A stretch of 64,000 bases of DNA from Myxococcota bacterium. Its GTDB lineage: Bacteria; Myxococcota_C; UBA6777. Position 1 is the first letter of the stretch. The number at the start of each line of letters is the position of its first letter. Of this stretch, positions 30,199-52,436 are shown piece after piece. The stretch is from positions 69,764-133,763 of the forward strand of contig JAKLKB010000003.1 in assembly GCA_023150835.1 (NCBI GenBank), written 5' to 3'. The position numbers were made by a program, and so were the translations under genes. Below the pieces are notes generated by a model that saw nothing but the letters and a program-made list of their open reading frames with translations, ran no database searches and was not told where the DNA came from.

Positions 30199-30747
30199 AT
30201 GAAGACACACACAACTCCTGCCTCTCTTCGCCTTCTTGCCACACTCGGCCTTTGTATGGCGTTGTTTTTCTTTGGCAAACGCTGGTATCAGCAAGCCGAG
30301 ACCTCATCGCTGCTTTGGCTACTCGGCCCCACCACGCAGGCGCTGTCTTGGTGGTCTGGAAAGACCTATCACTTCGTGGTGTCTGAAGGATTTTTACGAG
30401 AAGATGGCGCTTTGCTGATCCACAAAAACTGTTCCGGTTTTCAGTTTTTTTTACTTGCGCTGCTTGTCTCATGGTCTTCTCTGCTGTATCACGCTCGCTC
30501 TTTTCGTACAGGCTTTGTTCGCTTTTTGATCAGCAGTTGTGCAGCGTATCTGTTGACCTTGCTTGCCAATACCGCACGCATTCTTTCCGCTGAACACTTG
30601 GCTGCCATGCCATCGATCGCGTCACACATCGCCGCCGACACCCTTCATCAAAGTGTCGGGATCTTTGTGTACTTCAGCTTTTTGGTGCTCTTTTCTCTTT
30701 GCCTTTGGAGTGTACCCGATGAACGTCCCAACCCAACCCCATCTTGA
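30199..30747 (+). CDS. Exosortase/archaeosortase family protein (exosortase K-like)
   Basis: A 182-residue membrane protein with about five hydrophobic helices. It has the family's catalytic triad: Cys78 in HKNCSGFQFF, Arg127 in ANTARI, and His150 in DTLHQSVGIF. Exosortases are membrane cysteine transpeptidase-like enzymes that cleave C-terminal PEP-CTERM-type sorting signals. It is short compared with the large EpsH-type enzymes, as small dedicated exosortases are. The next gene overlaps its 3' end by 29 bases and encodes a protein with a matching sorting tail. ATG 30199 follows AAAGAGG at short spacing; upstream in-frame starts are possible. Confidence 0.85.
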   Translation: MKTHTTPASLRLLATLGLCMALFFFGKRWYQQAETSSLLWLLGPTTQALSWWSGKTYHFVVSEGFLREDGALLIHKNCSGFQFFLLALLVSWSSLLYHARSFRTGFVRFLISSCAAYLLTLLANTARILSAEHLAAMPSIASHIAADTLHQSVGIFVYFSFLVLFSLCLWSVPDERPNPTPS

Positions 30748-33700: not shown

Positions 33701-34021
33701 CTTGCGATCTATGGGCGTTGGCTATTGCAACAGCTACGTTTGGGGGGACAAGAAAACTGGCTTGCGCAGATCCGTTGGAGTTGGTATGCCCGCATCCTCG
33801 GACCTCAGACCTCCTTTACTGTGCTGGAAAATCAAGCCCAATGGGAAGCCTTGCGCCGAAAACAACAGCAAGTCCTCGCAGGAAAAAGCTTTTTCGATCT
33901 GACCGAAGACGAAGGACCACGCCGTGCGGATGAACCGCCGCTCGGAGGGTTGGTGCTGTTGTTGGGGATGTTCTTCTTCTACTTTCTGCGCAAAACACGC
34001 AAAGCGCGGTCCCAGAATTAA
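30719..34021 (+). CDS. Multi-helix membrane protein with VIT domain and PEP-CTERM-like tail (probable exosortase substrate)
   Basis: A 1100-residue protein. About residues 25-390 form ten or so membrane helices. A Ser/Pro/Thr-rich linker with three 13-residue repeats (RSPQSTVASTSPP) spans ~515-560. About residues 625-745 form a vault/inter-alpha-trypsin (VIT) domain (IPLGVWASAYALWIDGKKVDG, in parts, and IVRARQDPGLLYYED), followed by a vWA-like region. The C-terminus has Glu1072-Pro-Pro, a hydrophobic helix and RKTRKAR, the PEP-CTERM layout, 29 residues from the end. This architecture matches the MSEP-CTERM/VIT proteins found beside dedicated exosortases. GGAG is 9 bases upstream of ATG 30719, inside the exosortase gene. 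Confidence 0.82.
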   Translation: MNVPTQPHLEPAEPSRQLDLQSSNHPYWLLLSLTLPQVLLWLAFFYQYILIQSLLSDKSKGYWADYGMLIGAGIVGSIFVACFFRYKRHPLPAWLAPLLLFGYIGLLYFSIKDMPQLLPFNIPQWMSQREELSLLPFAFTMPVLFHALLMLIAYFTPNQDETASFPNFFYALLIPLIWYFFIQILVPYLRTKTYLSERLFLIFFICTTVCFFFFLLRGVLLALRKNQKTSRYAPFWRLLIALILPLAGLVTYNARSLFGMRGMHTPQIVGELSHPLFYLCAILAAGALLAPSPLLPRARLALFSLRMVVYPYTLFFFVIFLPFLPLSLLAILVMGLGFLMLAPTLLMILHSRTLAEEWRALRLHYRTTLLGLVAVLSFFAVPSGILTYLFQERATLHRALAYLYQPDHLRVQAPDIYPALLRNSIDALRQHHQRRRGRRFVIADEKRVPFLTSLYKSIVLDNMTLSQNKINELSQTFLGNTSPSQTTTARLFRPNRASPSASLQPIPPQTTAISPHQSRSPQSTVASTSPPRSPQSTVASTSPPRSPQSTVASTSQPNVKIAQPSPASASKMFTPSPSVSTQTALSATRPTSATAATASPHAATQPTVAAAQPAFRITTPKITHLQTSTHYDPTIHAYKSTILLRITNYGTWQQEFSTSFQIPLGVWASAYALWIDGKKVDGALTEKKATLWVYQQIVRARQDPGLLYYEDATTLRLRVFPVLARETRQTSFTLLHKAPFSFQIGASTHHLDDSRVLSRMQRPIERLWGDHLLFFPHEQKAKLPTLTRKPYLHAILDCSQGRKSHYALYIEQIRKLHQRYNLDPTHTRVTFANYQAHTSAWSADLLQHLESYPAQGGLFLVRVLKRIYLEHATQARDSFPVVVVLTPRIQDAILKQRLQGVPFLSPDAASFYSLNPQDRFTRHSLYGPLRDQEIQNTDPATFQPFSLGTVRTWPDAQHPRVFLRNDGQDSLVLRVPYVAQMPPTALPNDPWQAGLAIYGRWLLQQLRLGGQENWLAQIRWSWYARILGPQTSFTVLENQAQWEALRRKQQQVLAGKSFFDLTEDEGPRRADEPPLGGLVLLLGMFFFYFLRKTRKARSQN
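32273..32385 (+). repeat. 39-bp in-frame tandem repeat
   Basis: Three near-identical 39-base units starting CGCTCTCCCCAAAGTACCG at 32273, 32312 and 32351. They encode a 13-residue Ser/Pro/Thr repeat in the linker between the membrane helices and the VIT domain. Confidence 0.9.
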
Positions 34022-34520
34022 GCTTGGGTCGGCCCCCCCCTCATTCCCCCCGGCCAACGGGGGGAAGTTGGAGCAGGCAAAGACGCACCCGCAGAAGTCG
34101 TACCTGCAAGAGAGACCACAGCGGCCAACGGGGGGAAGTTGGAGCAGGCAAAGACGCACCCGCAGAAGTCCAAGTGTTCGGGAACCGCCCGTGTATCGGG
34201 ACATCGAGCAGCGAACGGACACGCTCACACAACCACAGAAGTTTACGTAGGGGCGGTTCGCGAACCGCCCGTGTATCGGGACATCGAGCAGTGTTGTCTT
34301 TCCGACAGCACAGACGAAGTGTCCGAGTGTTCGGGGTGGGGGGCCAACCATCGCTTAACAAGGCGCGTATGGGGCGTCGCACAACGACGGGGTGAGGGTG
34401 AAACGAACATGGGAGGCCCTCTGGGTACTTGCCAGAACAAGCGAACCTGCGCAAGATCCATCCGTCCATAAGGCCCGCACCGATCGACCCGACGGATGCG
34501 CCCATCTTCACGGAGTTTGG
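34022..34520. repeat. Repeat-filled intergenic block with families C and A
   Basis: About 500 bases between the VIT-protein gene and the first AAA+ gene, with no credible gene. It holds a perfect 48-base direct repeat at 34052-34099 and 34123-34170 (beginning GGCCAACGGGGGGAAGTTGG), and a 30-base direct repeat at 34182-34211 and 34262-34291 (beginning GAACCGCCCGTGTATCGGG). There is also a GGCGGTTCGCGAACCGCC palindrome near 34250. The CCCCCC...GGGGGGAAGTTGG core is shared with 41045-41243. Confidence 0.85.
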
Positions 34521-37500
34521 ATGAACCCCCAAGACAGCACCCCCGCCAAAGACACCGCCCCCCAAGAAGCCCAACAAACCCAGATCATCAAGCTCAAGCT
34601 GTTTGTTCAAGAACACCACGACGGCCAATTTACCCTCGAAGTCCTCGGAAAACGCGATATCTGCGTGTACACACCCGACCTCGATCAAGGCCGCGAAGAA
34701 CTGATGTTGATGCTTGTCGATCTCGTTGAACGCAGCCATCCCCGACTCCAAAGTAGCTTCCAACCCCCCGAAGATATCGAACACCACACCATCGAGATCC
34801 CCCGTGTGGTCTATGTTTCCGATGCTTCGGGACGTAGCGCAACCCCAACCAAAGTATCGATGTTCCTTCAACGCGATCGCAAATGGCAACGTCTGTATTT
34901 TCCGCGCCTTGACTGCCATTACTGGCTATCGATCGAGGCTCCGCTCGAAGAAAATGCGATCTCCTTTCTTCAGCAACATCAGTTTAAAAAGATGAGCGAT
35001 CACGCTCGCCTCAATCAGCGCTATGAGAAAAAAGAATGGATCGAAGAGTTGGAGATCGAAGCGATCCGTCCTCCCCTCGAAGAGTTTACAGGCCGGTATC
35101 TTGGGGTAGATCTGTTGCCGACTCCTGCGGAGCGCAAAGAAGCCGAAGAAAAAGAAGAGGAAGAAAACGCCCAAAAGCAAGGAAAAAAAGGCAAGAAGCG
35201 CCCGAATACACCGACATTTAAGAAGATCGGGATCCCGATCGCACAACAAGCCAAAGACAAAGAACTCGAACATGCCTACGGACGGGACAAAGAGATCGAG
35301 TCGTTGTTTGGGATGCTGCAAGCCAAAGGCGGCAAAGCCATCGTACTAGTCGGTCCTTCGGGCTGTGGCAAAAGCGCCTTGTTGTCGGAGTTGGCCTATC
35401 GCGTGACGCACCCTGACACCCCCGAAGCCCTGCGCGAACGGCCTATTTGGTTTGCTGATGCCAACCGCGTCGTCGCAACAGACGGATGGTTCGGCGACTG
35501 GCAAAGGCAGTGCCTTGATGTCATCCAAGAAGCCATCGATGCCGAAGTGATCTGGTACATCGGCGATGTCTTGCATCTGCTTGATGCCGGAAAAAACGTT
35601 CGTTCCGAGCAAAACGTCGCGATGATGCTCAAGCCCTATCTTGCAGGCCGTCGCATCACGGTGATCGGTGAGTGTTCCTCGCGCAACTTTGCACAGCTTG
35701 AGTTGCGCGATGTCGGATTCGCCCGTATGTTCAGCCCTTTTCGCCTCGAAGATCCCCCCCCCGAAACGATCCGCTCCATCCTTCAAGAAGTCTCCAAAGA
35801 TCTCAAAAAAGAACGCGCCATCGACGTATCGAGCCAAGGCTTGGACACCACGATGGAACTCAGCCGACGCTTCCAAAGCTCCCAAAGCCTACTCGGCCAC
35901 AGCGTGGCCTTTTTGCGCCGCCTTGTGGACGACGCTTCCAGCACAGAAGCCCCCCCCAAAGAACCACTCGGACGCAACGAAGTGATCGCTCACTTTTGCT
36001 CAGAAACAGGGATGCCTGCTTTTTTGGTGCGCGATGATCTTCCCCTTGATCCCGAAGCGATCTGGATGAGCTTTCGCACCCGCTTGATCGGCCAAGAAGA
36101 AGCCATCCGCCGCATGACCGATCTTGTCGCCATGATCAAGGCTGGGCTCTCTGATCTAGGCCGTCCCCTCGGCTCTTTTCTTTTTGTCGGTCCCACCGGC
36201 GTCGGAAAAACAGAGATGGCCAAGTGCCTTACCAGCTTTTTGTTTGGCCGCGAAGACCGCTTGATCCGCTTTGATATGTCCGAGTTTATCGACGCTTCAA
36301 GCGTCTATCGCTTCCTTGGTGACGCCCAAAATGAAGGGAAATTAATTAGCGCCATCCGCCGCAACCCGTTTTCTGTGCTGTTGCTCGACGAGATCGAAAA
36401 AGCCCATCCTGCGGTCTTTGACGTCTTGCTCCAAGTCCTTGGCGAGGCCCGACTCACCGACGAAGCAGGCCGCACCGCCGATTTCCGAAACGTCGTCGTC
36501 TTGATGACCTCAAACCTTGGTGTCGGCACTTTTCGCCGCCAAGTCGGCTTCGATCAAGGCGATGCGCTGCGCTTTCGCGATCACTTTCTGGCCGAAGCCG
36601 AACGCTTCTTTCGCCCCGAATTCTTCAACCGTATCGACTACATCATCCCCTTTATGCCCCTCGAAAGCGAAGCCATCCATCAGATCACTGTGCGCGAGAT
36701 GAACAAGTTCTTGCGCCGCGAAGGCATTCAACACCGCGAACTCCAACTCCAGATCGATCCGCTCGTCCATCCGTGGCTTGCCGAACGCGGCGTCAACCCA
36801 CGCTACGGCGCACGCCCGCTCAAGCGCGTGCTTGAACAACAGCTAACCGCCCCTCTCGCACGACACCTTTCGAGCCAACGCGGCCCGCACATCGGACAGA
36901 TCGGCGTCCAACCCGAAAAAGAAGCCCTTCAATTTACCAACCTCGGACAATCCAAACGCCAAGACACCCAACAAGCGCGAGCCACACTTCAAAAGCTGCT
37001 CGAACAGATCGGACTGGTTCGCTACCGCGCTCAGCGTTGGTCGCGTACCACCCTCTTTCGCGAACTCCACCAAAAAGTCCGCTTGTTTGATCGCCTCAGC
37101 CAGTCCCCCAACTTTTGGAACGATCACCATACCGCCGAACAATACGTCAAAAACATCGACGCAGAGCGCCAAGTCATCGAACAGTACCGCAGTTTTCAAG
37201 AGATGATCTGCTCCATCGAAGACCTCGCTTACGAGACTTATTACGATCGCTCCGTCTCACAAAAACACACACTCGAAGAAGAACTTGCGCAGGCCGAAAA
37301 AAGCCTTGAAGCCTTGGAGTTTCAACTGTACGGTCAGCGCTTCCAACACCCCAACGCAGCGACCCTGTACTTTGAACCCGGCAAAAGCGCCGCAGGATTC
37401 TTGCGGGCCCTGCTTGAAACCTACATCGAGATCGCCATCGAACGCGGGTGGCAAGTGACGGCCTACGCTTCGCGCCGCGTCCTCGATGAAGAACTTGAAA

Positions 37501-38168
37501 TCCAACAGATCCCTGTCGAAGATCCCCCTCTTCCCGAGTCCTTGGCTGCTTTAGAAGAGCTTCAAAAACGCAAAGACCGCCGTCCCAACAACGCAAATGC
37601 AAGCGCAAATGCAGCTCCCTCCGAACAAGAAAACGAGCAAGAATCTATCCGCCGCGCCAACGAACAACGCCTGCTCGAATTCAAAAAGCGCAACTCTCTC
37701 GAATACCGCCGCTGGCTCTGGCGCGAGCTCGATCCCCCCGATCTCGCAGAGTCCGAGATGCGAAAACGCCGCATCGAGCGCCTACTTGATCAGCTTTACT
37801 CTTTTAGCGGCGACGAATACCCCCGTGTCATGGTCTTTGAAGGCCAGCACGCCGCAAGCCTACTCAACCACGAAAGCGGCCTCCACACCCGCATCGCCCG
37901 CGATCAAACCGAGCAAGTTAAAGTCTTTTACGCCGATCAGCGGCCCTCCAAAAAAGAACAACTCCTTCATCCCGTCGATCTTTCCGAGAAATGGAGCACA
38001 CAACGCCTTCGCACCGCCCAAGAAAACAAAAACCTCTTGATCGATCATGTCCTTGATACGCACGTCTACCTCGAACCCCGCCTCCACCTTCTTTATGCTC
38101 GCATGATGCGCAGCCACATCTACGTCAACACCTTCGGCGAACAAGCCGCCAAGTGGCTTCGCACCTAG
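34521..38168 (+). CDS. Clp/HSP100-like AAA+ ATPase 1 with release-factor-like C-terminal region
   Basis: A 1215-residue cytoplasmic protein. Residues ~20-200 form a non-Clp N-terminal region, with a HicB-like strand/helix pattern at ~22-77; a Lys/Glu linker spans 205-230. AAA module D1 has Walker A GPSGCGKS (278-285), but the Walker B position reads IWYIGD (Gly348-Asp349) instead of DE. D2 has Walker A GPTGVGKT (557-564), Walker B LLLDEIEK (Asp623-Glu624), Arg finger region FFRPEFFNRID and sensor 2 YGARPLKR. The pore-loop GYVG segment is replaced by the short DAQNEG (601-606). VGF (675-677) sits at the ClpP-loop position. Residues ~845-1215 resemble the PCRF helices and core of RF2 (PNFWNDHHTAEQYV, LLNHESGLHTRIARD) without GGQ. 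GGAG precedes the ATG. Confidence 0.8.
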   Translation: MNPQDSTPAKDTAPQEAQQTQIIKLKLFVQEHHDGQFTLEVLGKRDICVYTPDLDQGREELMLMLVDLVERSHPRLQSSFQPPEDIEHHTIEIPRVVYVSDASGRSATPTKVSMFLQRDRKWQRLYFPRLDCHYWLSIEAPLEENAISFLQQHQFKKMSDHARLNQRYEKKEWIEELEIEAIRPPLEEFTGRYLGVDLLPTPAERKEAEEKEEEENAQKQGKKGKKRPNTPTFKKIGIPIAQQAKDKELEHAYGRDKEIESLFGMLQAKGGKAIVLVGPSGCGKSALLSELAYRVTHPDTPEALRERPIWFADANRVVATDGWFGDWQRQCLDVIQEAIDAEVIWYIGDVLHLLDAGKNVRSEQNVAMMLKPYLAGRRITVIGECSSRNFAQLELRDVGFARMFSPFRLEDPPPETIRSILQEVSKDLKKERAIDVSSQGLDTTMELSRRFQSSQSLLGHSVAFLRRLVDDASSTEAPPKEPLGRNEVIAHFCSETGMPAFLVRDDLPLDPEAIWMSFRTRLIGQEEAIRRMTDLVAMIKAGLSDLGRPLGSFLFVGPTGVGKTEMAKCLTSFLFGREDRLIRFDMSEFIDASSVYRFLGDAQNEGKLISAIRRNPFSVLLLDEIEKAHPAVFDVLLQVLGEARLTDEAGRTADFRNVVVLMTSNLGVGTFRRQVGFDQGDALRFRDHFLAEAERFFRPEFFNRIDYIIPFMPLESEAIHQITVREMNKFLRREGIQHRELQLQIDPLVHPWLAERGVNPRYGARPLKRVLEQQLTAPLARHLSSQRGPHIGQIGVQPEKEALQFTNLGQSKRQDTQQARATLQKLLEQIGLVRYRAQRWSRTTLFRELHQKVRLFDRLSQSPNFWNDHHTAEQYVKNIDAERQVIEQYRSFQEMICSIEDLAYETYYDRSVSQKHTLEEELAQAEKSLEALEFQLYGQRFQHPNAATLYFEPGKSAAGFLRALLETYIEIAIERGWQVTAYASRRVLDEELEIQQIPVEDPPLPESLAALEELQKRKDRRPNNANASANAAPSEQENEQESIRRANEQRLLEFKKRNSLEYRRWLWRELDPPDLAESEMRKRRIERLLDQLYSFSGDEYPRVMVFEGQHAASLLNHESGLHTRIARDQTEQVKVFYADQRPSKKEQLLHPVDLSEKWSTQRLRTAQENKNLLIDHVLDTHVYLEPRLHLLYARMMRSHIYVNTFGEQAAKWLRT

Positions 38169-38560
38169 CCGCACAAGCAAAGTCAAGGATTCATCTAGCT
38201 CAAGGCTTCTACGAAGACCACAGGCAATCCATCGCAAATAGGGGGATGTTCGAGATCTTGAGCAAGATGTTCTCCCAAAGAAAGCGCTGAAAGATAATCG
38301 ACTTGGATTCCAACGACTTGGATGGGGACTCGTACATATCTATCTCCACGCCCCTCTGTCAATCTTCCTGTTCCCGCTTGCCCTCGTTTCTAGCGTCGCT
38401 CCTGCCCACCGCTCACCTCCACGATAATCTTGACAAAAAAGGCAAACCGTCCTATCCATCGAAACACATCGGGTTTTGCTGTGCTTTTCTTCCAAGAAAT
38501 CCAACAGCGACCACGCACCGAGAAACAATGGACTTTTTTGTCCGATAAAGGAGCCCCACC
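38169..38560. other. Intergenic region
   Basis: A 392-base gap after the first AAA+ gene. It contains a short direct repeat of CGACTTGGAT near 38298-38325. I see no coding frame, RNA gene or member of repeat families A-D. Confidence 0.4.
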
Positions 38561-39007
38561 ATGAGCGAAAACCAAGAGAGCGGATATCCTGGGAGGAGAG
38601 AAAAACAAGTCAAGTACAAAGCAATGCCGTTGGTGTATTCATGTTCGGGTTGTTCGAGTGTTGCGCAGTTGGCGAATGCGTTGGCAGTGCGACTGGATCG
38701 AGAAGAACTGGCCGAGATGTCCTGCATCGCGGGGGTGGGTGGCGGTGTCAAAGCGTTGGTCAAAACAGCCAAGTCCCAAAGACCGATCCTTGCGCTCGAT
38801 GGTTGCCCGTTGCATTGCACTCTTCATTGCTTGGAACAACAAGGCGTCGAACCCACGGTGCATGTCGATCTGTCGACTTTTGGCTTGCGCAAACGCTTTC
38901 ACGAAGACGCGCTCCCCGAAGAACAAGCCTATGCTTGGGAACAAGCCATCGAACCCGCTCTTGAACAACTCAAATCTCCCCCGATCGAGCGGGCCAAAAG
39001 CGCTTAA
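38561..39007 (+). CDS. DGC-type putative zinc-binding protein
   Basis: A 148-residue soluble protein. Its core has YSCSGCSSVAQLANALAVRLDR (start and end of the first motif), MSCIAGVGGGVKALVKTA and LALDGCPLHCTLHCL, the conserved Cys motifs of the DGC/putative zinc-binding family (CxxC-type Cys, CxAGVGG, DGCPxxC). Members are small proteins of unknown function, often near metal-reduction or sulfur genes. AAAGGAG is 7 bases upstream of ATG 38561, which adds a charged N-terminal extension of ~25 residues. It follows the first AAA+ gene on the same strand but after 392 bases. Its link to the ATPases is unproven. Confidence 0.8.
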   Translation: MSENQESGYPGRREKQVKYKAMPLVYSCSGCSSVAQLANALAVRLDREELAEMSCIAGVGGGVKALVKTAKSQRPILALDGCPLHCTLHCLEQQGVEPTVHVDLSTFGLRKRFHEDALPEEQAYAWEQAIEPALEQLKSPPIERAKSA

Positions 39008-39028
39008 AGGCAAGAGGATCGCGAACGC

Positions 39029-39472
39029 ATGGAATGCCAAGTCTGCTTCAATCGCAATCTGTACACCACTTTTCACACCCTGTGGCTGCGTTACATCCGT
39101 TGGGGCGTGGCGCGCTCCCGTCTGACGCCTCTGCTGTATCCCTTCGAGATGCTGCTCAATCCGCTGTTGTTGGCTTCGGTTCTTTGGCTGTGGACGGGTT
39201 GGTCTTGGCTGTGGGGTTGGTCGCTGTTGTTGATCAACCTGCGCGATATCAGCCAATGGTGGATACTGCGTGGAAAGCATCGGTGGTTCTGGGTCTGGAT
39301 ACTCGGCCCGTTTCGCGAGATCGTGTACTCCTGGCTTGCGGCACCTTTCTACCACACCGTCCAATGGCGCGGACACACACTGCGCGTCGGCGCTGGAACT
39401 CATCTCTTCGTCGTCTATCCACCCCAAGAACGCACGCAAGAACAACCCCAAGAAGCCCCCAAACGCTCGTAG
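39029..39472 (+). pseudogene. C-terminal fragment of a family-21-like (ceramide glucosyltransferase/HpnI-type) glycosyltransferase
   Basis: A 147-codon frame that matches only the last third of membrane glycosyltransferases of family 21 type. It has LWLRYIRWGVARSR (the Q/RxxRW-like acceptor-site motif region), two or three hydrophobic helices, then GPFREIVYSWLAAPFYHTVQWRGHTLRVG, in parts, matching the family's terminal WRGRRFRL segment. The nucleotide-sugar-binding domain with its DxD motifs is missing, and the preceding sequence is the unrelated DGC gene. AGAGG lies 11 bases before the ATG, so a stand-alone membrane protein is possible, but a truncated remnant is more likely. Confidence 0.6.
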
Positions 39473-39618
39473 TCACCGCCGATGTAGCAGAAACTTAGAC
39501 GAGATCCGCAGGGTGCGTGATCACAAAACGTCGGGGCAGACAGGTGTGACGAACACTCGGACACATCCTCTGTAAAGCCCATCCAGCAGGAGATATCTGA
39601 CAGGGACACGTTTCGTTT

Positions 39619-39698
39619 GACCCTCACCCCAGCCCTTCGGGCGTCCCCTCTCCCTGCGACGCTCGCAAAGCCTCGCTGCTGCCGCGAGGGGAAAGCAC
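39619..39698. repeat. Dispersed repeat family D, copy 1
   Basis: Contains ACCCTCACCCCAGCCCTTCG, GCGTCCCCTCTCC and GCGAGGGGAAAGC, with complementary CCCTCTCC/GAGGGG halves. A second copy lies at 52340-52416. The surrounding 39473-39749 gap holds nothing else recognisable. Confidence 0.7.
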
Positions 39699-39749
39699 AG
39701 AGCAAAGCAGAAGAGAAACAGAATGGAGCCGCGATGATTGGATTTCGTA

Positions 39750-40154
39750 CTAAGCGGACAGACCGGGGGATGGGGTTCGTTCGGGGTTGAGCGACATACG
39801 GCTGTGGGGGAGTTCTTGGTCACGGATCTTTTGCAAAGCCCGGCACATCGTGGGTTTGCTGACGCGAACCTTGGCGCACGAGTAGAAGTCTTCGCAAAGG
39901 GCTTCGAGGGTGGCTTCGGGTTTGTTCGCGACGATCTGGCGAAGTGTGGATAAACTGCCTTGATCGATGCGGGGTTGTGGGCCACGACGATAATCTTTGG
40001 GTTGAAGGTGGCCTGTATCACGGAAACGCTTGAGCCAATTTTGGACGGTGGCCAAGCACACACAAAAACGGCGGGCCAACTCACGTTGCGAGCCTTCACC
40101 GTTTTTGTAAGCATTGATCACACGGATACGCAGATCATTGGAATAAGGACGCAT
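39750..40154 (-). pseudogene. IS630-family transposase remnant (N-terminal part)
   Basis: A 134-codon frame with the N-terminal DNA-binding half of IS630/Tc1-mariner transposases: MRPYSNDLRIRVI, a helix-turn-helix SQRELARRFCVCLATVQNWLKR, and a second HTH around KPTMCRALQKI. It stops at about residue 134, before the DDE catalytic domain (full length is ~330-350), and the following DNA (39473-39749) does not encode the rest. GGAG is 6 bases before ATG 40154. IS630 elements often use two frames, so a first-ORF product is possible, but no second frame is present. Likely an inactivated insertion at the edge of the AAA+ cluster. Confidence 0.8.
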
Positions 40155-40940
40155 GGAAAACTCCTTGTGGATCGGATGCAGGGGTGGAGAGTCGCGAAAG
40201 CCAAGCAGCGACGTGAGGAGTCGGGCTTGGCTTGGCGAGCGATGGGAGGCGTTGCGAAGATATTTTTTCGGAAAATGTTGTGCTTCGGCGATCTTTTGCG
40301 ATAGCAACGGTCGCCCATCTCACAAAAATCAAACCTTGTGTGGCTTACTTCGTTTGAAGCAGTCGCCGCTGGTTTGGATACGCTTATGCGTCCAAAAAGC
40401 CCAACAACACAAAAGAATCGCTTTGGAGTGTGTTTTCAGCGAACACTTTTCCTCGAAACGACACAAAAATATCGAAACCAACGCCGTCTTGAAACGACAG
40501 CCTCAGCCCTGCGGGTTCAACTTCCCCTCTCTCCCGCGATTTACGGCGTAGAGGAAGTGGAAAACGCTGGGTGCTTTTGACAAAGAAACAAAACCACGTG
40601 GAAAAAGCCCGCAACGCAAGCCTTCCACAAAAAACCAACGAGCCAAAACATAAAAAACCAAAGAACCCAAGAGATCAGAGAATTCGATCCCGATATACGT
40701 CCTGCGACGTCAACTTTCCCTCCGATTTGAGCGTGGTGTGCGGTTGCAAACACCGAAGCATCGGCACAACACAAACCAGCGTAGAGAAAGTGGATGGCGT
40801 AGGATCGCTTTTCCAACCACCCGTCGATACGGGTCAGGGTGTGGGATAGCACACGCCCCTTTGCGCGTCAATCTTTTTTTCAGGGGCCACCGTTCGGTGT
40901 CGCTTGTAGATGGGATCTACGCCATCAAGATGCGTCATAC

Positions 40941-40995
40941 GAGATCCGCCCATTGTGTGATCGTAAAACGTAGGGGCAGCCCCCATACGCGCCTT
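40941..40995 (+). repeat. Dispersed repeat family A, partial copy 4
   Basis: Contains GAGATCCGCCCATTGTGTGA and ACGTAGGGGCAGCCCCC, nearly identical to the start of copy 1 at 3667. It breaks off before the second half of the hairpin. Confidence 0.7.
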
Positions 40996-41044
40996 GTTAA
41001 GGTGGAAACACCGGATAGTCTAGCCTGATCGCCGTTTCTTTTGT

Positions 41045-41243
41045 CGCCCCCCCCTCAATCCCCCCTCAATCCCCCCTCAATCCCCCCGTGAACGGGGGGA
41101 AGTTGGAACGGGCAGCGTCTGCGCGTCGTGCATACAGCGTGTGTCATGAAAAAACAAAATCCCCGCTGCTTCCGACTTTCGCTCCCTCCCCTGTTCACGG
41201 GGGAGGGCTGGGGGAGGGCTGGGGTGGGGGGGCCAACAAGCGC
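41045..41243. repeat. Family C element: MITE-like inverted repeat
   Basis: The left end has three CCCCCCTCAAT units followed by CCCCCCGTGAACGGGGGG. The right end has CCCCTGTTCACGGGGGAGGG and two GGGCTGGGGGA-like units, the approximate reverse complement of the left end. The ends enclose about 90 bases. This is the shape of a small non-autonomous inverted-repeat element. The GGGGGGAAGTTGG part is shared with the 34022-34170 block. Confidence 0.6.
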
Positions 41244-41253
41244 TTAACCTAAC

Positions 41254-41375
41254 GCCTATGGGGGCTGCCCCCTGTGGCTGCCCAAGAATAGGGCGATCCG
41301 CTGCCCAAGAATGGGGCGGTTCGCGAACCGCCCCTACATCATGCGATCATACATTACGCGGAGATCGTATCAGTC
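41254..41375. repeat. Dispersed repeat family A, copy 5 (compound)
   Basis: Contains GGGGGCTGCCCCCTGTGGCTGCCC, in parts, then two AAGAATRGGGCG strings and the palindrome GGGCGGTTCGCGAACCGCCC. It combines the GGCAGCC hairpin of family A with the GGTTCGCGAACC palindrome also found near 34250. Confidence 0.65.
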
Positions 41376-41473
41376 CTCTACACAAACGGCGTGCTTTGTG
41401 TAGGATACGGGAGCGCAATCGAGTCACCGCGCATCGAAACTCAAAAGATGCGCTGCATCGGGAGATTTGTTTG

Positions 41474-44400
41474 ATGAATGTTGCGATCATGGTGTCCGTC
41501 GACGCCAAAGAAAGCTACGAACTCTTTGTACCGGGACTGTCTTTGCAGCGCTTTCGCGGGGCCAGCCTCGCCGAGCAGCTCGACAACATCGCCCTTCACT
41601 TGATGGAACGGGTTCCACGCTGGCCGATTCGGGATATGCCCTTGTTGGCTTTTTGCCCTTATATCGAGCTACGTAAGATCAAGGTCGAGATCGATCTGCG
41701 CCCCTTTAAGCAAAAACTCAAAAAGACGTGGACAGGGCGCTTTGCGGTAGTTCTAAGCCGCTGGCCGGGCGACGGCTTCTACACAGCCGTGATCCCGCGC
41801 CTGAGCAACCAACGCTTTGCGCTGATGCGTACGGCTTATCTGGAGCATGCCGTCAAGCACTTTGTCGAAGCATGGGTCGAAGAGACGGGAAAGATCGAGC
41901 TTGACGACTACATCTGCCGCTCTTACGAGTACCTCGAAGTTTTGGATGTCGAGTTGGACTACCCAACGATCTTGCCGTCGCGTCCGAAGAAAAACAAAAA
42001 CAAGACCAAAAAAACCAAGCCGGGCGAACCCAAACAAAAACGCAAGCGCGAGATCGTTGCACCCACCACCTTGCGCGAAGTCGGACTGAACCTCAGCCAC
42101 CGCGCCATCGACGATCGCCTCTCTCCGGCATTTGGCCGAGAGACACTCGTCAAACAGATCCTCCAGTTGCTCCAACGAGAAGGCGCTGCGATCTTGCTTG
42201 TGGGCCCGTCGGGTGTAGGAAAAACAGCGATCATCCACGAAGTCGTTCGCAGCCTCGCCAAGCAAGAACTCCCAATCCAAGAGCGAAACGACATCTGGGA
42301 GATCGATGGCAACCGTCTGATCGCAGGAATGAGCGTGGTGGGTGCATGGGAACAACGCTGCCAAAATATGGTCCACGAACTCCAATCCCGCAACGATATC
42401 CTCTACGTCAACGATCTTCCTTCGCTCGTATACACGGGGCGTTCCGCACACTCGGACACCCACGTCGCTCAGTACCTCGAACCCCACCTCGCACGCGGTG
42501 ACTTCCGCATCCTCGGCGAATGTACTCCCGAACGCCTCGAAGCCACCCGCGAAGAAGCTCCCGGCTTCTTCGCACGCTTCCGCATCCTTCAGATCCCCGA
42601 ACTCCCCGAAAAAGACACCCTCTCGGTACTTGTTCACGCCACACGCCGCTTTGAAACGCTCGAAGATATCGTGATCGCCCCCGACACCCTCCTCACAACA
42701 CTCGCCCTCACCCGACGCTTTCAAGCCCACGAATGTTTCCCGGGAAAGGCCATCACGCTCTTGCGTCGATTGATCTCCGACCATCAAGATATCACCGAAG
42801 ACTCCTTTGGTCGCCGCTCGATCCAACGCGAACAACTCGTCCGCTTTTTTGAACGCCAAACCGGCCTACCCGGCTTTATTCTGTGGGAACAACAAGCCCG
42901 CGCCACCAGCGATATCCGCAGCCACTTTGAGCGCCGCATCATCGCCCAACAAGCCGCTGTCCACGCTGTGACAGATGTCGTCACCACCCTTCAACAAGGA
43001 CTCAACGATCCCGAAAGGCCCCTTGCCACCATGCTTTTCGTCGGCCCCACAGGTGTCGGCAAAACCGAAACCGCCAAAGCCCTCGCGGCTTATCTCTTTG
43101 GCCGAGAAGACCGCATGATCCGCTTTGATATGTCCGAATTCATGGATGGATGGGCTGTTTCGCGCCTAATCGGCGACCGCTATCAGCCCGACGGTGAACT
43201 CACCCGCCGCGTCCAACAACAGCCCTTTAGTGTGATCCTGCTCGATGAGATCGAAAAGGGCCATCCTGCCGTCTTTGACGCCATGCTCCAAGTCCTCGGT
43301 GAAGGCCGCTTGACCAACGCCGCAGGACGCACCGTCAACTTCTGCAACACCGTTGTGATCATGACTTCCAACCTCGGCGTGCGCGAAGCCAACCGCTCTC
43401 TCGGCTTTGCTGGCCCCGACGAAGAACAGATGGACACCCATTACCGCAAAGCCGCCGAAGGCTTCTTCCGCCCCGAATTCTTCAACCGCATCGATCGCAT
43501 CGTCCCTTTTCGCCGCCTCGGTCGAGACGCCATCGCTCCCCTTGTCCAACGCCTTCTCCAAGATATCTTGGGCCGCCGGGGACTTCGTCGCAGCCAAATC
43601 ATGGTCCAAGTCGATCCCGCACTCGTCGAACTGCTGATCGATCTGGGCTTTGATCCCCAATACGGCGCACGCTCCATGAAACGCTTGCTCGAACAGCGCC
43701 TCACCGTCCCGCTCGCCAAACGCCTTGTCGAATCGCCTCCCGCACAAAACACCTTGATCCAAGTCTTCGAACAAGAAAAAGATATCGCGATGGAGATCTG
43801 GAACCTCGAAGAACCCCATGTCGAACTCTTGCCCAGCCTACAGCCCGTTCAACGCTTTGAAGAACTCAAACCCCGCTTTGAAGCCGTCACAACAGGCTTT
43901 GCCCTACTCTCCAACGACCCCATGATCCAAACACTTCAGGCCGAACACACCCAACTCCTTCAAGCCTTTAACGCCCAAACACACGCTTTCCACAACCAGA
44001 CTTCCGAAACCTCTCTCTCTCCAACTCTCCCCTCCCAACAACAAGAGCGGCTCAACTTCCTCGGCGAACTCCTTGACGAGATCCGCCAAATCCAAGGAGC
44101 CATCGAGCATTTTCAAGAAGAATACCTCGCCACCTTCCATTTCCAAGAAGTCCTTGAGTACGGCGTCATGAGCACCATCAAGCACGAATACCGACGTATG
44201 CGCTCCGACTTTATCTCCGAACAACCCATCGACAGCGACTCCCAACGCTTGCTTCCTTTCGCACGCCTAGCCATCAACGATCTGCGCCTGCGCTTTGCCA
44301 GCTTGCTGTTTCGCGCACAAAACGCACACCGCTTCCAAGGCAACCACGCTCTCTTGCGCATCCTGCCCATGACAGAAGATCCCAATACTCGCCTTCAAAT

Positions 44401-45451
44401 GCTTTGTTTTGCCTACGCTTTCGCCCAATGCTGGCAACCTTGGGCCAGCCTCCAGATCTTCCGATGCGGTCCTCTAGGCTGGCAGATCGACACCACCCCC
44501 CACAACGCCCGAAAAGAAGACAGCCTCGCCAACTATCTCGATGCCAATGCCCCTCAAAGCCAATGGCACGATATCACTGCCATCGCCATCCATCTACACG
44601 GCCCCGGCATCCGCCAGTTGCTCGAAGACGAAGTCGGCTTCTGGCTCTACACCTACAGCAGCGGCCCTGATCAGATCTGTGACCTGTTGCGTATCGAAGA
44701 TGTATTCGACCAAGCCCTCCTCGCCCTTTGGCCCGATACATCCGCTCCTTCCGATATAAGCAGATCACCCGAAAACTTCGGCACCTCCGACGCCTCCAAC
44801 CCCCTTAACACATCCGAACCATCCGATACAAACAACGCACCCAGCACATCCGCTCCATCCGATACAAACAACGCACCCAGCATATCCGCTCCATCCGATA
44901 CAAACAACGCACCCAGCATATCCGCTCCATCCTACATCACCCACACATCCGAACCATCCGATGCGTCCGCTTCCTCCGACACCACCCACACATCCGAACC
45001 ATCCGATGCGCCCGCTTCCTCCGACACCACCCACACATCCGAACCATCCGATACGCCTGCTTCTTCCAACACATCTGAACCATCCGATGCTGTCGCCTCT
45101 TCCGATGCTGTCGCCTCTTCCAAGATCACCCACACAACCGAGGCATCCGTCCGAACGCCCCATCCATCCGTCCCCACCGAAGCCGAGATCGGCCAAGCGC
45201 TCACCGCGATGGATCGAGCTTATACAGATTATCTTGAAGCACGAAGACAACGCGGCGATGTCCGCAACCCACGTCCACAACTGCCGCTGTGCCGCCTATT
45301 CCACGAACACTTTTCGATCGACCCGCTGACGGGCGAAGAACTCTATCTTCCCGTTCATTCGGACCAAAACGAAACAGATCTGCTCGATCAACTCGCCCAG
45401 ACCATGCACCGTATCGCGATGTATCGCGTCCTTGCCAAATACCTCCAATAG
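41474..45451 (+). CDS. Clp/HSP100-like AAA+ ATPase 2 with release-factor-like region and Ser/Thr-rich linker
   Basis: A 1325-residue paralogue of the neighbours. Residues 1-190 are a non-Clp N-terminus with a HicB-like segment (~87-140) and a Lys-rich linker. D1 has Walker A GPSGVGKT (244-251) but Walker B reads ILYVND (Asn313-Asp314). D2 has Walker A GPTGVGKT (524-531), Walker B Asp591-Glu592, FFRPEFFNRID and YGARSMKR. The pore loop is shortened to GDRYQPDGE (567-575), and LGF (643-645) lies at the ClpP-loop site. Residues ~815-1075 resemble a decayed PCRF region (LLRILPMTEDP, IAIHLHGPGIRQLLEDEVGFW). Residues 1090-1220 are Ser/Thr/Pro/Asp repeats with 12- and 15-residue periods. A conserved-looking C-terminal piece follows. 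The next paralogue starts 22 bases downstream. Confidence 0.8.
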   Translation: MNVAIMVSVDAKESYELFVPGLSLQRFRGASLAEQLDNIALHLMERVPRWPIRDMPLLAFCPYIELRKIKVEIDLRPFKQKLKKTWTGRFAVVLSRWPGDGFYTAVIPRLSNQRFALMRTAYLEHAVKHFVEAWVEETGKIELDDYICRSYEYLEVLDVELDYPTILPSRPKKNKNKTKKTKPGEPKQKRKREIVAPTTLREVGLNLSHRAIDDRLSPAFGRETLVKQILQLLQREGAAILLVGPSGVGKTAIIHEVVRSLAKQELPIQERNDIWEIDGNRLIAGMSVVGAWEQRCQNMVHELQSRNDILYVNDLPSLVYTGRSAHSDTHVAQYLEPHLARGDFRILGECTPERLEATREEAPGFFARFRILQIPELPEKDTLSVLVHATRRFETLEDIVIAPDTLLTTLALTRRFQAHECFPGKAITLLRRLISDHQDITEDSFGRRSIQREQLVRFFERQTGLPGFILWEQQARATSDIRSHFERRIIAQQAAVHAVTDVVTTLQQGLNDPERPLATMLFVGPTGVGKTETAKALAAYLFGREDRMIRFDMSEFMDGWAVSRLIGDRYQPDGELTRRVQQQPFSVILLDEIEKGHPAVFDAMLQVLGEGRLTNAAGRTVNFCNTVVIMTSNLGVREANRSLGFAGPDEEQMDTHYRKAAEGFFRPEFFNRIDRIVPFRRLGRDAIAPLVQRLLQDILGRRGLRRSQIMVQVDPALVELLIDLGFDPQYGARSMKRLLEQRLTVPLAKRLVESPPAQNTLIQVFEQEKDIAMEIWNLEEPHVELLPSLQPVQRFEELKPRFEAVTTGFALLSNDPMIQTLQAEHTQLLQAFNAQTHAFHNQTSETSLSPTLPSQQQERLNFLGELLDEIRQIQGAIEHFQEEYLATFHFQEVLEYGVMSTIKHEYRRMRSDFISEQPIDSDSQRLLPFARLAINDLRLRFASLLFRAQNAHRFQGNHALLRILPMTEDPNTRLQMLCFAYAFAQCWQPWASLQIFRCGPLGWQIDTTPHNARKEDSLANYLDANAPQSQWHDITAIAIHLHGPGIRQLLEDEVGFWLYTYSSGPDQICDLLRIEDVFDQALLALWPDTSAPSDISRSPENFGTSDASNPLNTSEPSDTNNAPSTSAPSDTNNAPSISAPSDTNNAPSISAPSYITHTSEPSDASASSDTTHTSEPSDAPASSDTTHTSEPSDTPASSNTSEPSDAVASSDAVASSKITHTTEASVRTPHPSVPTEAEIGQALTAMDRAYTDYLEARRQRGDVRNPRPQLPLCRLFHEHFSIDPLTGEELYLPVHSDQNETDLLDQLAQTMHRIAMYRVLAKYLQ
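44822..45073 (+). repeat. In-frame 36-bp and 45-bp tandem repeats
   Basis: Three units of 36 bases (encoding SDTNNAPSISAP or near variants, 44822-44930) are followed by three units of 45 bases (encoding THTSEPSDxxASSDT, 44939-45073). They form the low-complexity linker of AAA+ protein 2 and are absent from the two paralogues. Confidence 0.9.
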
Positions 45452-45473
45452 CCCATAGCTCACGGATCGCCGC

Positions 45474-48400
45474 ATGCAACAGCGTTTTCATGTCTTCACC
45501 AAACACCACTTTAACGGATGGTATACCGCGCAAGTCCTCACCCATCCCAACTACACCACATACGCCGCCACCCTCAAACAAGCCCGCGAGGAACTTCACG
45601 AAGTCCTTGCCCGCGAACTCGCGCTCAAACGCATCACCACCCCCGAAACCGACACCTTCTTCGATCCGCTGAACCAACACGCCCTACGGCTCGAACTCAA
45701 CGCGGTCCAAAACGAGCGCCTTGTGCGTGTCCCCATGCGTTTTACTTTGTTCGAGCGCCCGCTCAAGGAAAAAGATCTCTTCGAGATCTGGATCCCTCGG
45801 ATCGAAAAGACATTTCGGATCTTCGACAAAGACAACATCATCCCTTGGTCCGAAGAGATCGTGCGCGGCTTCTTTCACTTGCGCCAAGTCGAGTCCCTGC
45901 TGCAATACCAATACGAACGCAACGAACGCCTCGAAGCCTTGGAGGTGGTGTACCACGGAGCAGGCCGCTACAAGGTTAAAAAAGAAGACGAAAAGCCCGA
46001 CGAGGATATCTTTGCCTTCCAAGAGAGCAATCCGCTCAAAGAAGTGGGCGTCAATCTGACGCTCGAAGCCTCGGAAGGACGCTTGCAACGCGCTCATTTT
46101 CGAGAAAAGCCCCTTCAACAACTGCTGTCCGTTCTCAGCGGCCACCAGCAACGCAGCCTTTTGTTGATCGGCCCGTCGGGTGTAGGCAAGAGCGCACTTG
46201 TCCACGAACTCGCCCATCGCATCGCACTCAAACAAGTCCCTGAGCGCCTTCACAACACCAATATCTGGTACGTCACAGGAGGCCGCATCATCGCAGGGAT
46301 GAAGTATCTCGGGGAGTGGCAAGAGCGATGTATGCGGATCATCGAGGAAGTTCGCGCAGAACAAGGCATCCTTTATATCGACGGCATCCTCGAAGTGATG
46401 ATGTCGGGTTCGCTGCGCAGCGGACTCAACGTTGCACAGATGCTGTTGCCGTTTTTGCAAAAAGATGACTTGGTGGTGATCGCCGAAGCAACGCCCGATG
46501 CACTCGCGATGGCTGAACAACTCAACGCCCCCTTTGTCCAAACCTTCCGACGCTTCCCTGTTCCCGCCTTTTCCGCCCAAGAATCGTTCTCCATCCTCGA
46601 ACGTTCCGCCCAAAAGCTCGGCAAAGAGAACCAGATCCTGTTTACCCGCGAAGCCCTTCAACGTGCGCTCGATATCCTCGCTCGCTTCGGCGATGCCAAT
46701 GCTCTCCCCGGCTCTGGCATCCGATTGATTGAGCAGATGGCCCACCTCTATCCCCCCGGCACACAAAAACGCAAGCTCCATCCACAAGACGCCATCCAAG
46801 CTTTTTCCCGCTCTAGCGGCTTTCCTGAGGCCCTGATCGATCCCGATCAAAACCTTGATATGGACGCTGTTCGGCAGTTCTTTTTGGATCGCATCGTCGG
46901 CCAAGACAACCCTGTCCGTTTGCTCTCGAATCTGATCATGTTGATCAAAGCCAGCCTCAATGATCCCCAAAAACCCCTCGGCTCCTTTCTCTTTATGGGA
47001 CCCACAGGAGTCGGAAAGACCGAGTCGGTCTTGGCCCTCACCGAATATCTTTTCCGCGACCGCAAACGCCTGATCCGCCTCGATATGTCCGAATACGCGG
47101 CTCACGGTTCGGCCATGCGCCTTGTCGGAGGCGTCGACGGCGAAGGCGACCTCACCCGCAAGATCCGCGAACAACCCTTCTCTGTTGTCCTCCTTGATGA
47201 GATCGAAAAAGCCGACCCAAGTGTCTTTGATATCCTACTCCAAGTCCTCGGTGAAGGCCGTCTCACCGACACCACAGGCTCCACCGTCCACTTTACCCAT
47301 GCCATCGTGATCATGACCTCCAACCTCGGGGCCGAACAAAAGAACCCCGTCGGCTTTGCAGGCCGCACTCTCAAAGGTCTCGAAGCCCATTACCGCGATG
47401 CTGCCGAGCGTTTCTTTCGGCCCGAATTCATCAACCGCATCGACTTCTTGGTCCCCTTCCATCCGCTCGAACGCGATTCTCTCCGACGCATCGCAAAGAT
47501 GATGCTCGATCAAGCCATCCAACGCGAAGGCTTCCAGCGCCGCGAGATCAAAGTCCAGTACAACGACGAACTGCTCGATCATCTCGTCTCTATCGGCTAT
47601 CAACCCCGCTACGGAGCGCGACCCATGAAGCGCGCCATCGAACAAACTGTCCTCGTCCCGCTCTCTCGACGACTGATCCGCAGAAAAGACGCACAGGCCG
47701 AAACCTTCGAGCTTTACATCGACCAAGATCACCTCGCCATCCTCTCCAACCGCACCCCCTCCACCCCCATCCCTCTGCCCTTGCGCACCGTCCAACTCCA
47801 ACACGACAACCTCTGGGAACGCTATCTCGGCGACCTCCGACGCCGACTCCAGTCTTGGGAAGAAACCCCTTTCCTGCTCGAACTCCGACAACAAGGACAT
47901 CCGCTGTTCGGGCGTTTTGCACACTTCCTCCAAGACATCCACGATATCGAGTGGCTGTCCAAACGCACTCCCTCCACCCTTCCTCCCAACACCCAAGCGG
48001 ATCTCCACGCCCGCGCCCTCGCACTCGACGCACAGCGCCTCCAACTCGAATGGGATCTCTCTGTCGCTCGGTGGCTCCTCTCCCCCCATCCCACCGCCTG
48101 TTCGCTCTTTCTCCACAGCCCCACGCTCCACCCCCAAAGCATCCGCCTGATGCTGCGCATGGCCGATGCCTACAAACAATTCGCCCAAGAACTCGACCTC
48201 TCCCTCCAGATCACCGAAGAACCCCAACGCATCGCTCTGTCCTTTCAAGGCTCTCTCGCCGCCCTCTTGCGCGCAGAGATCGGCATCCATCGCCTACAGA
48301 TCGAAGACAACGCCTCCGTCGATATCATCCTCTCCGAAACAACCCAACCACCCGACCTCACCACCACCGAAGAAGATTCCCCCCTCCCGATCCGCATCCT

Positions 48401-48518
48401 CACCGAAGATCCACCCCTGCTCTTCGATCCGCTGTCTTCTCTTGAGATCCACGCCCCCCTCACCACCCTCTCGTCCCATCTACGGACTTTTTTGCTCATG
48501 CGCTTTGACTTCGCATAG
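45474..48518 (+). CDS. Clp/HSP100-like AAA+ ATPase 3 with release-factor-like C-terminal region
   Basis: A 1014-residue paralogue. The N-terminus has a clear HicB-like look ([10 protein letters not shown]...[18 protein letters not shown], residues ~13-51). D1 has Walker A GPSGVGKS (233-240), the pore-1-like KYLGEWQ (277-283), and a Walker B position reading LYIDG (Asp303-Gly304, Glu lost). D2 has Walker A GPTGVGKT (509-516), LLDEIEK (Asp575-Glu576), [11 protein letters not shown] and YGARPMKR. The pore loop is reduced to GGVDGEGD (552-559), and VGF is at 626-628. Residues ~770-945 match the release-factor PCRF core best of the three: [16 protein letters not shown] and [23 protein letters not shown] (in parts) correspond to the RF rMY and L.G..AY..L..E.GvHR segments. 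No GGQ is present. It starts 22 bases after AAA+ gene 2 and likely shares its transcript. Confidence 0.8.
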
Positions 48519-48589
48519 AAGTCATGCGACATCGCCCAAACCAACACACGGAACACACCACTCCAAACCTACAGGAAGCTCACTCCACA

Positions 48590-51007
48590 ATGCCACTTAC
48601 CTTGCCGCAACTTGAACACCACCTCTTTAGTGCTGCCGACATCCTACGCGGTAAAATGGATGCCTCCGAGTTCAAAGAATACATCTTCGGAATGTTATTC
48701 TTGAAACGCTGTTCCGACCAATTCGAGGTTCACCACGCAGAGATCATACGCGCACAAAAAGCCAAAAACCGCCCCGAAGAAGAAGCCCTCCAACGTGCTG
48801 AAAGTGCATCCTTTTATACAGGAACCTTCTTTGTTCCTCCCATGGCCCGCTGGCCCGCCCTTCGCGACCATCTTCACACCAACGTCGGCGACGGACTCAA
48901 CAAAGCACTTGGCGCATTAGAAACAGCAAACAGCGCACTCAGCGGCGTTGTCCAACACATCGACTTTACCCGCACTGTCGGAAAAAGCCGACTCCCCGAC
49001 AAAAAACTTCTTGAGCTGATCAAACACTTTAACAAATACCGTCTCCGCAACGAAGATTTCGAGTTCCCCGACCTACTCGGAGCCGCATACGAATACCTCA
49101 TCGGCCAATTTGCAGACTCTGCTGGCAAAAAAGGCGGCGAGTTCTACACACCCCGCGCCGTCGTCAAGATGATGGTGCGACTCGCCGACCCCAAAGAAGG
49201 GATGCGTGTCTATGACCCTTGCTCTGGTTCAGGGGGTATGTTGATCCTCGCCCGCGAACACGTCGCTGAACACGGCGGAGATCCACGAAATCTCCGCCTC
49301 TTTGGGCAAGAAGACAACGGCGGTGTTTGGTCGATCTCCAAAATGAACATGATCCTCCACAGCATCCCCGACGCCATCATCGAAAACGGCGATACCCTCG
49401 GATTTCCCCTCCACAAAGAAGGCGGTGAGTTGATGCGCTTCGACCGCATTCTCACCAACCCCCCTTTCTCGCAAAACTACAAACGCGAAGACATGGAGTT
49501 CACCGAACGCTTCCACTATGGCTGGTGCCCCGAATCGGGCAAAAAAGCCGACTTGATGTTTGTCCAACACATGATCGCCGTGATGCGTCCCAACGGCATG
49601 ATCTGCACCGTCATGCCACACGGCGTCTTGTTTCGCGGTGGAGACGAAAAGACTATCCGCGCAGGTATTATCCAAGACGACCTGCTCGATGCCGTGATCG
49701 GACTTGCGCCCAATCTCTTCTATGGAACAGGCATCCCCGCTTGTATCCTCGTACTCCGCGCCAAAGGCAGCAAACCCGCCGAGCGCAAAGGCAAAGTCCT
49801 CTTTATCAACGCAGATGCAGAGTTTCGCTCAGGCCGCGCACAAAATTACCTCGACCCCGAACACATCGAAAAGATCGTCAATGCTTACCAGCGTTACGAA
49901 GAGATCCCCGGCTTTGCAGCGCTCGTCGACAACACCACGCTCGCCGAAAACGGCTACAACCTCAACATCCGACGTTATGCCGACAACGCCCCGCCTCCCG
50001 AACCCCACGACGTGCGGGCGCACTTGCAAGGCGGCATCCCCAAGGCCGAAGTCCAAGACAAACAACCGCTCTTCCAAGCCCACGGACTCGACCCGATGCG
50101 CCTCTTTGTCGAGAGAGACAAACACTACCTCGACTTCGCCCCAACCCTCCAAAGCAGAAACGACCTCAAACCGCGCATCGAACAAGATCCCGGACTCCTT
50201 GCACGCGAAGCCGAACTCTTCCAAGCCTTCGAGGTTTGGTGGAACACTTACCGCGCCCAGATCGTCGGCTTGCCCACCACCCAACGGTTGATGCTCACAC
50301 GCGCCGAACTCATGGAATCGTTCGAGAAAGCCCTTGTACCCATCGGTCTCTTGGATCGTTTCCAAGTCGCGGGAACGATTGCGCGTTGGTGGGGCGATGT
50401 CTTGTACGACCTACGGGCGGTGATGGCGCAAGGATTTATGGGCGGTATCCACAGTTGGGTCGCCTCTATCCTCTCGCTCTTGGAAAACAGGCAAAAAGCC
50501 AACAGCCCTTTCGAGCACAAACTTGCGCGCCGACTCTTGGCCGATCTCAACGAAGAAATCACTCAAAAAGAAGCCGAGATCGCCGAGTTGGATAGCCAAA
50601 TCAAAGCCGCCAAACCCAACGACGACGATGAAAACAACGACGAGAACAGCGACAACGACGAAGAAGACGCCTTGAGCGAAGAAGAGATCAAAAAACGCAA
50701 AAGCAAACTCAGCGCCGCCAAAAAACAGCTCAAACAGCTATACAACAGCTTTGAAGAAGCTCTCAAACATGCCCGCGATGCTCTCGACAATGACGAAGCC
50801 CAAGTCCTTGTCTTGGAGATCCTCTCCAGCGACCTCCGCGACGAACTCACCCGCAAAGTCCACGCACACCGACAAACCGTCACCGCCGCTTTTGAAAATT
50901 GGTGGGACAAGTACCGCGTCACCTTGCGCGAGATCGAAAGGGCACGCGACACCGCCAAAACACGGATAGACGGTTTCTTGAAGGAGTTGGGCTATGTCGT
51001 TGGTTAA
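48590..51007 (+). CDS. hsdM: Type I restriction-modification methyltransferase subunit HsdM
   Basis: An 805-residue N6-adenine methyltransferase subunit. A HsdM N-terminal helical domain (~1-150) precedes [13 protein letters not shown]. AdoMet motif I is DPCSGSGGM (209-217) and the catalytic motif is NPPF (290-293). It is longer than the usual ~500-residue HsdM. The extra C-terminal ~250 residues are helical, with a very acidic stretch (Asn/Asp/Glu run, ~680-705) and coiled-coil-like sequence that may bind HsdS. ATG 48590 has AGGAAG upstream. Its stop overlaps the hsdS start by 14 bases, so M and S are translationally coupled. Confidence 0.93.
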
Positions 51008-52271: not shown

Positions 52272-52339
52272 GAGAGTGCCTTGACCGACGGGGGAAGCAA
52301 CAGCTAGTTTCAATCGAGAGAAGGAGTTCGGGAGGTGTT

Positions 52340-52416: not shown

Positions 52417-52436
52417 AAGCACGGAGATTGCGGTAC

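Follow-up and report, generated by a model that had tools for sequence, protein, structure and literature searches.

A 64,000-nucleotide stretch of DNA from a Myxococcota bacterium (GTDB lineage Bacteria; Myxococcota_C; UBA6777), which corresponds to positions 69,764 to 133,763 of the forward strand of contig JAKLKB010000003.1 (GenBank assembly GCA_023150835.1) and is referred to here as the window, contains a cassette of three paralogous genes (genes 1 to 3) whose products carry two AAA+ domains followed by an additional C-terminal region. We consider it virtually certain that these proteins and their relatives represent a new Clp/HSP100-type family, whose architecture is a ClpA/ClpB-like double ring fused to a pseudo-release factor derived from release factor 2 (RF2). 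The overall best explanation of the sequences, to which we assign a probability of roughly 0.42, is that this pseudo-RF2 would act as a docking module by which the motor is tethered to translation.

A sequence-only reading of the window had described three open reading frames (ORFs) with the order N-terminus, first AAA+ domain (D1), second AAA+ domain (D2) and extra C-terminus, and this order is confirmed. The three frames (Table 1) are in frame and free of stop codons; each protein contains AAA_2, ClpB_D2-small and a weaker D1 match in Pfam, and the AAA modules are likewise found with NCBIfam. The N-terminal region of approximately 200 residues has no Pfam match in any of the three proteins. 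Against the NCBIfam ClpA and ClpB models, the three proteins score 343-395 bits, far under the cut-off, compared with curated values of 993-1232 bits. The C-terminal extensions comprise approximately 400, 570 and 260 residues in proteins 1, 2 and 3, respectively, and that of protein 2 holds an insert of approximately 150 residues of Ser/Pro/Thr repeats (TSEPSD and NNAPS units, ~44700-45200), which is missing from the orthologue in genome G003.

In protein 1, Pfam PCRF matches residues 852-984 with 27.3 bits (cut-off 24) and the isolated C-terminal piece with 29.8 bits, and the NCBIfam prfB model TIGR00020 matches residues 840-983 with an E value of 1e-8. In the PDB, a profile of the C-termini of protein 1 orthologues retrieved RF2 chains with E 3.5e-8, compared with 0.03 for RF1, the single sequence of protein 1 retrieved RF2 at E 3e-5, and the hhalign comparison of the module with RF2 gave P 6.5e-11. 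The motifs originally named in proteins 1 and 3 are real and follow one another in the order of RF2. Their assignment to the PCRF core requires correction because "P.FWND" belongs to RF2 domain 1 (the N-terminal helices), and the module is therefore RF2-like rather than RF1-like. The second motif of protein 1 (E.G.H), which lies beyond a poorly conserved insert of approximately 130 residues, aligns to the next RF2 segment; here the in-order stretch gdeyprv...sglhtri pairs with GIDYAQILVKGENAYGLLSPEAGVHRLV of RF2.

Searches of PDB sequences with the profiles of proteins 2 and 3 returned no release-factor match, and the relation of protein 3 emerged only when profile was compared with profile. 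Against a profile of 28 RF2 sequences from many families, the protein 3 profile aligned in hhalign over 125 columns, up to "EIGIHRLQ", with a score of 43.7 (P 1.9e-5), whereas the highest score among 60 decoys, made by shuffling columns or by reversal, was 23.3. An orthologue of protein 3 matches PCRF at E 0.0031, under the Pfam cut-off. The AlphaFold model of the module, which used only two orthologues as input, has a helical bundle and, after it, the PCRF topology, with a predicted local distance difference test score (pLDDT) of 62.7; release factors fill the first 28 places among its Foldseek matches in the PDB, with RF2 leading at E 1.2e-5. The VIA-align Z score of ~10 over 208-220 residues is regarded as moderate because helical bundles score there too, and we give the weight to the Foldseek matches and to the sequence profiles.

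The claim that all three C-termini carry a release-factor-derived module thus stands for proteins 1 and 3 on the basis of PCRF, the RF2 profile and Foldseek, and the outcome that would have refuted it, either no release-factor match in any of them or a better one to another fold, did not emerge. For protein 2 the signal is weak and slightly exceeds decoys only when the profiles are pooled (31.2 vs 20.5), with no single test significant. Most of its alignments fall on one element (HGPGIRQLLEDEVGF), and the AlphaFold model of its orthologue is poor (pLDDT 45), with RF2 as the top match at a non-significant E of 0.03. A relation of protein 2 to RF2 is no more than suggestive.

Relatives of the fusion, 940-1,361 residues in length, occur in four GTDB phyla besides that of the window, which gives at least five phyla in total, and their sequences place the presence of an RF2-derived module beyond doubt. 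The prfB E values in the four phyla are 4e-23, 3e-40, 2e-38 and 2e-25, those of prfA are far weaker, and PCRF matches range from 2e-15 to 2e-20. One form is a single-chain fusion of 940 residues (locus L018 in genome G032), which was found in approximately 80 sampled genomes of essentially one family of its phylum, a family that we infer to be Myxococcaceae; nearly all large Myxococcaceae genomes sampled contain it as a stand-alone gene. The hhalign comparison of the Myxococcaceae module with RF2 extends over 299 columns, from RF2 position 14 to 354 (P 1e-25). A further phylum has the fusion in G526 and in 10 more genomes, and it is also present in G314 and G450 (two of the two genomes of their phylum) and in G330 and one other genome (two of eight), and TPR repeats occupy the N-terminus in the G314/G450 and G330 lineages. 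A scan of the genome contigs returned only two true relatives, both from the window's phylum. Candidates that were rejected are L087, which is an ordinary ClpB, and the Clps of G559 and G294 and the 625-residue Clp of G467, in which no release-factor module follows D2.

In the window's phylum, cassette members are present in all five genomes sampled. The three genes are in tandem in G003, where gaps of 52 and 9 bp separate them and the 3.3-kb spacer found in the window between genes 1 and 2 is absent, and in G004, where a 4-bp overlap is followed by a 35-bp gap. Trees of the three paralogues give no one-to-one orthology between the G000/G001/G003 and G002/G004 groups. Direct repeats of 33-49 nucleotides upstream of gene 1 (34047-34291) recur upstream of gene 2 (41082-41354).

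A multi-lineage alignment indicates what the module retained from RF2 and what was removed. The domain 1 motif "P.FWDD" and the domain 2/4 core "G..A(F/Y)G.L..E.G.HR" are kept, and the C-terminal tail "V.DPRT......L.GElDxFI" is kept in most lineages. The GGQ peptidyl-tRNA hydrolysis motif is absent from every fused member, as the sequence-only reading had maintained for the window, and the modules of the window's phylum lack any detectable GGQ domain. The SPF loop that reads the stop codon is absent from all fused members, and the GGTE helix tip is also gone. With these losses, it has the appearance of an RF2 that is catalytically dead and codon-blind. The dN/dS of the release-factor modules between two species of the window's genus is 0.05-0.10 for protein 1 and 0.19 for protein 3, and both modules are under purifying selection. 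Genuine prfA (RF1) and prfB (RF2) genes are also present in the window's genome, and therefore the fusion is not the RF2 of the cell. A release-factor tree gave no placement of the modules within RF2 because the branches are very long.

The motor was compared with ordinary Clps by alignment of the motifs and by a tree of 26 fused or cassette sequences and 18 ordinary Clps. All 26 fused or cassette AAA+ sequences lie on one side of a single branch, with a Shimodaira-Hasegawa-like approximate likelihood ratio test (SH-aLRT) support of 100. Because the AAA+ cores group together across at least five phyla, the fusion arose once or a few times; the simplest reading of the sequences would be one fusion event with subsequent loss and, in the window's phylum, triplication, and the details are uncertain because of the long branches. 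The D2 Walker A and B motifs, sensors and arginine finger are kept in all fused proteins. D1 retains Walker A in every one of them, and the DE pair of its Walker B is intact in none, which suggests that D1 probably binds ATP and does not hydrolyze it. The aromatic GYVG pore loop of D2 is shortened or replaced in all fused proteins, with an invariant Trp at the site in Myxococcaceae, and the D1 pore tyrosine persists in protein 3 and some relatives (KYLG or KYIG). As an HSP100 engine, the term used in the sequence-only reading, these proteins are unusual, and canonical unfolding should not be assumed, given that D1 lacks an intact DE pair and D2 has lost its threading loop. A further Clp of the same genome (L005:1486-4881, minus strand) has an N-terminal region that gives the sequence impression of a CHAT/caspase-like protease.

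On the ribosome, RF2 points its domain 1 toward the base of the stalk and RF3 and places domain 2/4 in the decoding center, and its GGQ domain hydrolyzes peptidyl-tRNA. Because the core of RF2 was kept and codon reading and catalysis were removed, docking would be the most useful property left, and the pseudo-RF2 is proposed to bind the ribosomal factor site (the GTPase-associated center or the A site) or a partner of RF2. Docking to either the ribosome or a termination factor falls slightly short of an even chance, and docking of the fusion to the ribosome itself is plausible, if somewhat doubtful. At the factor site, the module would neither read codons nor cleave peptidyl-tRNA, and the ATP-driven ring might remodel or remove a stalled component, possibly together with ClpP; we hold remodeling at the docking site as a tentative proposal. 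In the window's phylum, the ring is perhaps mixed because the genes of three divergent paralogues are tightly coupled; we give a mixed hexamer of the three less than an even chance.

Several observations weigh against this explanation. Homology alone does not imply A-site binding because the best-known decoding-center contacts are precisely those that were lost. The third protein ends at 755 residues without the module in G002 and G004, two of the five genomes of the phylum. No conserved translation gene adjoins the fusion at loci L043 and L044 or in the Myxococcaceae neighborhoods, where no conserved partner gene of any kind was found. In addition, D2 has lost its aromatic pore loop, which speaks against ordinary threading into ClpP.

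In the main rival, recruitment of the RF2-derived fold served only to provide a protein-protein or oligomerization module, and the machine acts off the ribosome on unknown clients. This alternative, which we take seriously without favoring it, accords with the disappearance of the codon-reading and catalytic residues in every lineage, and both the Myxococcaceae neighborhoods and the truncated third paralogues count in its favor. However, domain 1 and the domain 2/4 core, with the tail in most lineages, have been kept across phyla under purifying selection, which exceeds the needs of a generic scaffold.

A second alternative is that the fusion is an adaptor for a ClpP protease, in which the pseudo-RF2 would bring termination or rescue complexes (nascent chain, RF3 or ArfA-like factors) to ClpP, engaged via the xGF loop, to be degraded. 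This tripeptide docks ClpP in ClpA. Every fused member examined has it in the form [VLIMW]GF, as do the ClpA-like proteins of the window's genome, and the ClpB of that genome lacks it. Each of the phylum's five genomes contains two ClpP genes, and one such gene lies within the window. Nevertheless, the tripeptide could be an ancestral remnant, the D2 GYVG loop is absent, and the D1 pore loop is degenerate in several lineages; we thus consider this adaptor improbable. The ClpP-type peptidase gene of the window lies at 11644-12588 (+), approximately 22 kb upstream of the cassette.

It is also conceivable, at a still lower level of likelihood, that the pseudo-RF2 is a non-catalytic regulator, acting as a competitor of RF2 or by blocking the A site (a hibernation or starvation brake), and that the ATPase is only an on/off switch. 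The loss of GGQ and SPF recalls inactive release-factor paralogues of the unrelated aeRF-1 fold, which have been discussed as regulators that insert into the A site (PMC6514570), and a D1 that probably binds ATP without hydrolysis would suit a switch, but mere competition would hardly warrant the expense of a double-ring ATPase whose D2 catalysis is intact. The probability that the resemblance is due to chance or to a generic alpha/beta fold is negligible: protein 2 alone is not significant, but this explanation is refuted for proteins 1 and 3 by RF2-specific scores, which are overwhelming in the relatives and far lower in the decoys.

The fusions share with ClpA/ClpC and ClpB (class I HSP100) the D1-D2 double AAA+ core with D2-small, the D2 catalytic motifs (Walker A/B, sensors, arginine finger) and an xGF of the ClpA type, and they differ in the degenerate D1 Walker B, the lost D2 GYVG, the added RF2 module and scores far below the curated ones. 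They resemble RF2 (PrfB) in domain 1, the PCRF core and the C-terminal "V.D.RT...LDG.LD.FI", with prfB scoring better than prfA, whereas GGQ, the SPF loop and the GGTE helix tip are missing, domain 3 is eroded (undetectable in the window proteins) and a motor is attached. ArfB/YaeJ and PrfH are likewise specialized derivatives of release factors, but they keep the catalytic glutamine and have no AAA+ fusion (PMC6514570). In eukaryotic ribosome quality control, Cdc48-Vms1 also pairs an AAA+ unfoldase with a release-factor-like protein, but the release-factor fold is non-homologous, the polypeptides are separate and the release factor is catalytically active (PMC6514570). By analogy, AAA+ motors docked to the ribosome through a catalytically dead, codon-blind RF2 might constitute a class of bacterial machine not recognized before, a non-homologous counterpart of quality control by Cdc48-Vms1 with one chain in Myxococcaceae and three subunits in the window's phylum; we offer this comparison with considerable reservation. 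Clp goes unmentioned in a dedicated survey of how release factors evolved (PMC6514570), and no description of a Clp-release-factor fusion was found in the open literature, subscription papers and preprints being outside this scope, so that the original statement that no such system has been described is upheld there. Because automatic domain databases very likely already display the combination of PCRF and AAA_2, the family should be called undescribed rather than unseen.

Table 1. Coordinates in the window of the three genes, the spacer and the segments related to RF2.
Feature	Positions	Strand	Description
Protein 1, 1215 aa	34521..38168	+	N-domain, AAA D1 (Walker A kept, Walker B degenerate), AAA D2, D2-small, RF2-derived C-terminus
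RF2-derived module, protein 1	36957..38165	+	PCRF Pfam match ~37071-37469
Second half of PCRF fold, protein 1, MVFEGQHAASLLNHESGLH...	37827..37943	+	Equivalent of RF2 G..AYG.L..E.GVHR; without SPF loop
Spacer between gene 1 and genes 2-3, 3.3 kb	38169..41473	.	DGC-like ORF, HpnI-like glycosyltransferase fragment, IS630-like transposase fragment (named from sequence)
Protein 2, 1325 aa	41474..45451	+	N-domain, D1, D2, long C-terminus with Ser/Pro/Thr repeat insert
Protein 2, AIAIHLHGPGIRQLLEDEVGFW	44576..44653	+	Best-aligning part against RF2/pseudo-RF2 profiles (suggestive)
Protein 3, 1014 aa	45474..48518	+	N-domain, D1, D2, RF2-derived C-terminus
RF2-derived module, protein 3	47742..48515	+	Helical domain 1, then beta-alpha-beta-beta-alpha-beta-beta PCRF core (~48096-48335)

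The surroundings of the cassette and of its relatives contain other genes. In the window, an exosortase-like protein precedes a large VIT-domain membrane protein (30061-34021), and type I restriction-modification genes occupy 48524-59300, with an AAA_15/DUF3226 pair (PADLOC candidate PDC-M38A/B) between HsdS and HsdR. A reading of the cassette as a defense system was rejected: PADLOC matches are limited to generic AAA (DolB, PDC-M37B), and the type I restriction-modification neighbor is not conserved. Judged from sequence, the fusion gene of G526 (L148:8066-12715) is directly between pyrR-like and pyrB-like genes, and a DUF2058/YaiL-like gene lies near or directly downstream of the fusion in two genomes (L149:1448-2068 and L150:9588-10697).

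A protein-remodeling motor and translation termination are thus joined in one polypeptide, an arrangement that is conserved across phyla and apparently undescribed. Because the fusion is a stand-alone and nearly universal gene in large Myxococcaceae genomes, its function is open to ordinary gene deletion in Myxococcus. If the fusion acts on the ribosome, it would define a new ribosome-associated AAA+ system; if it does not, it would illustrate how an entire release factor comes to be reused as a scaffold.

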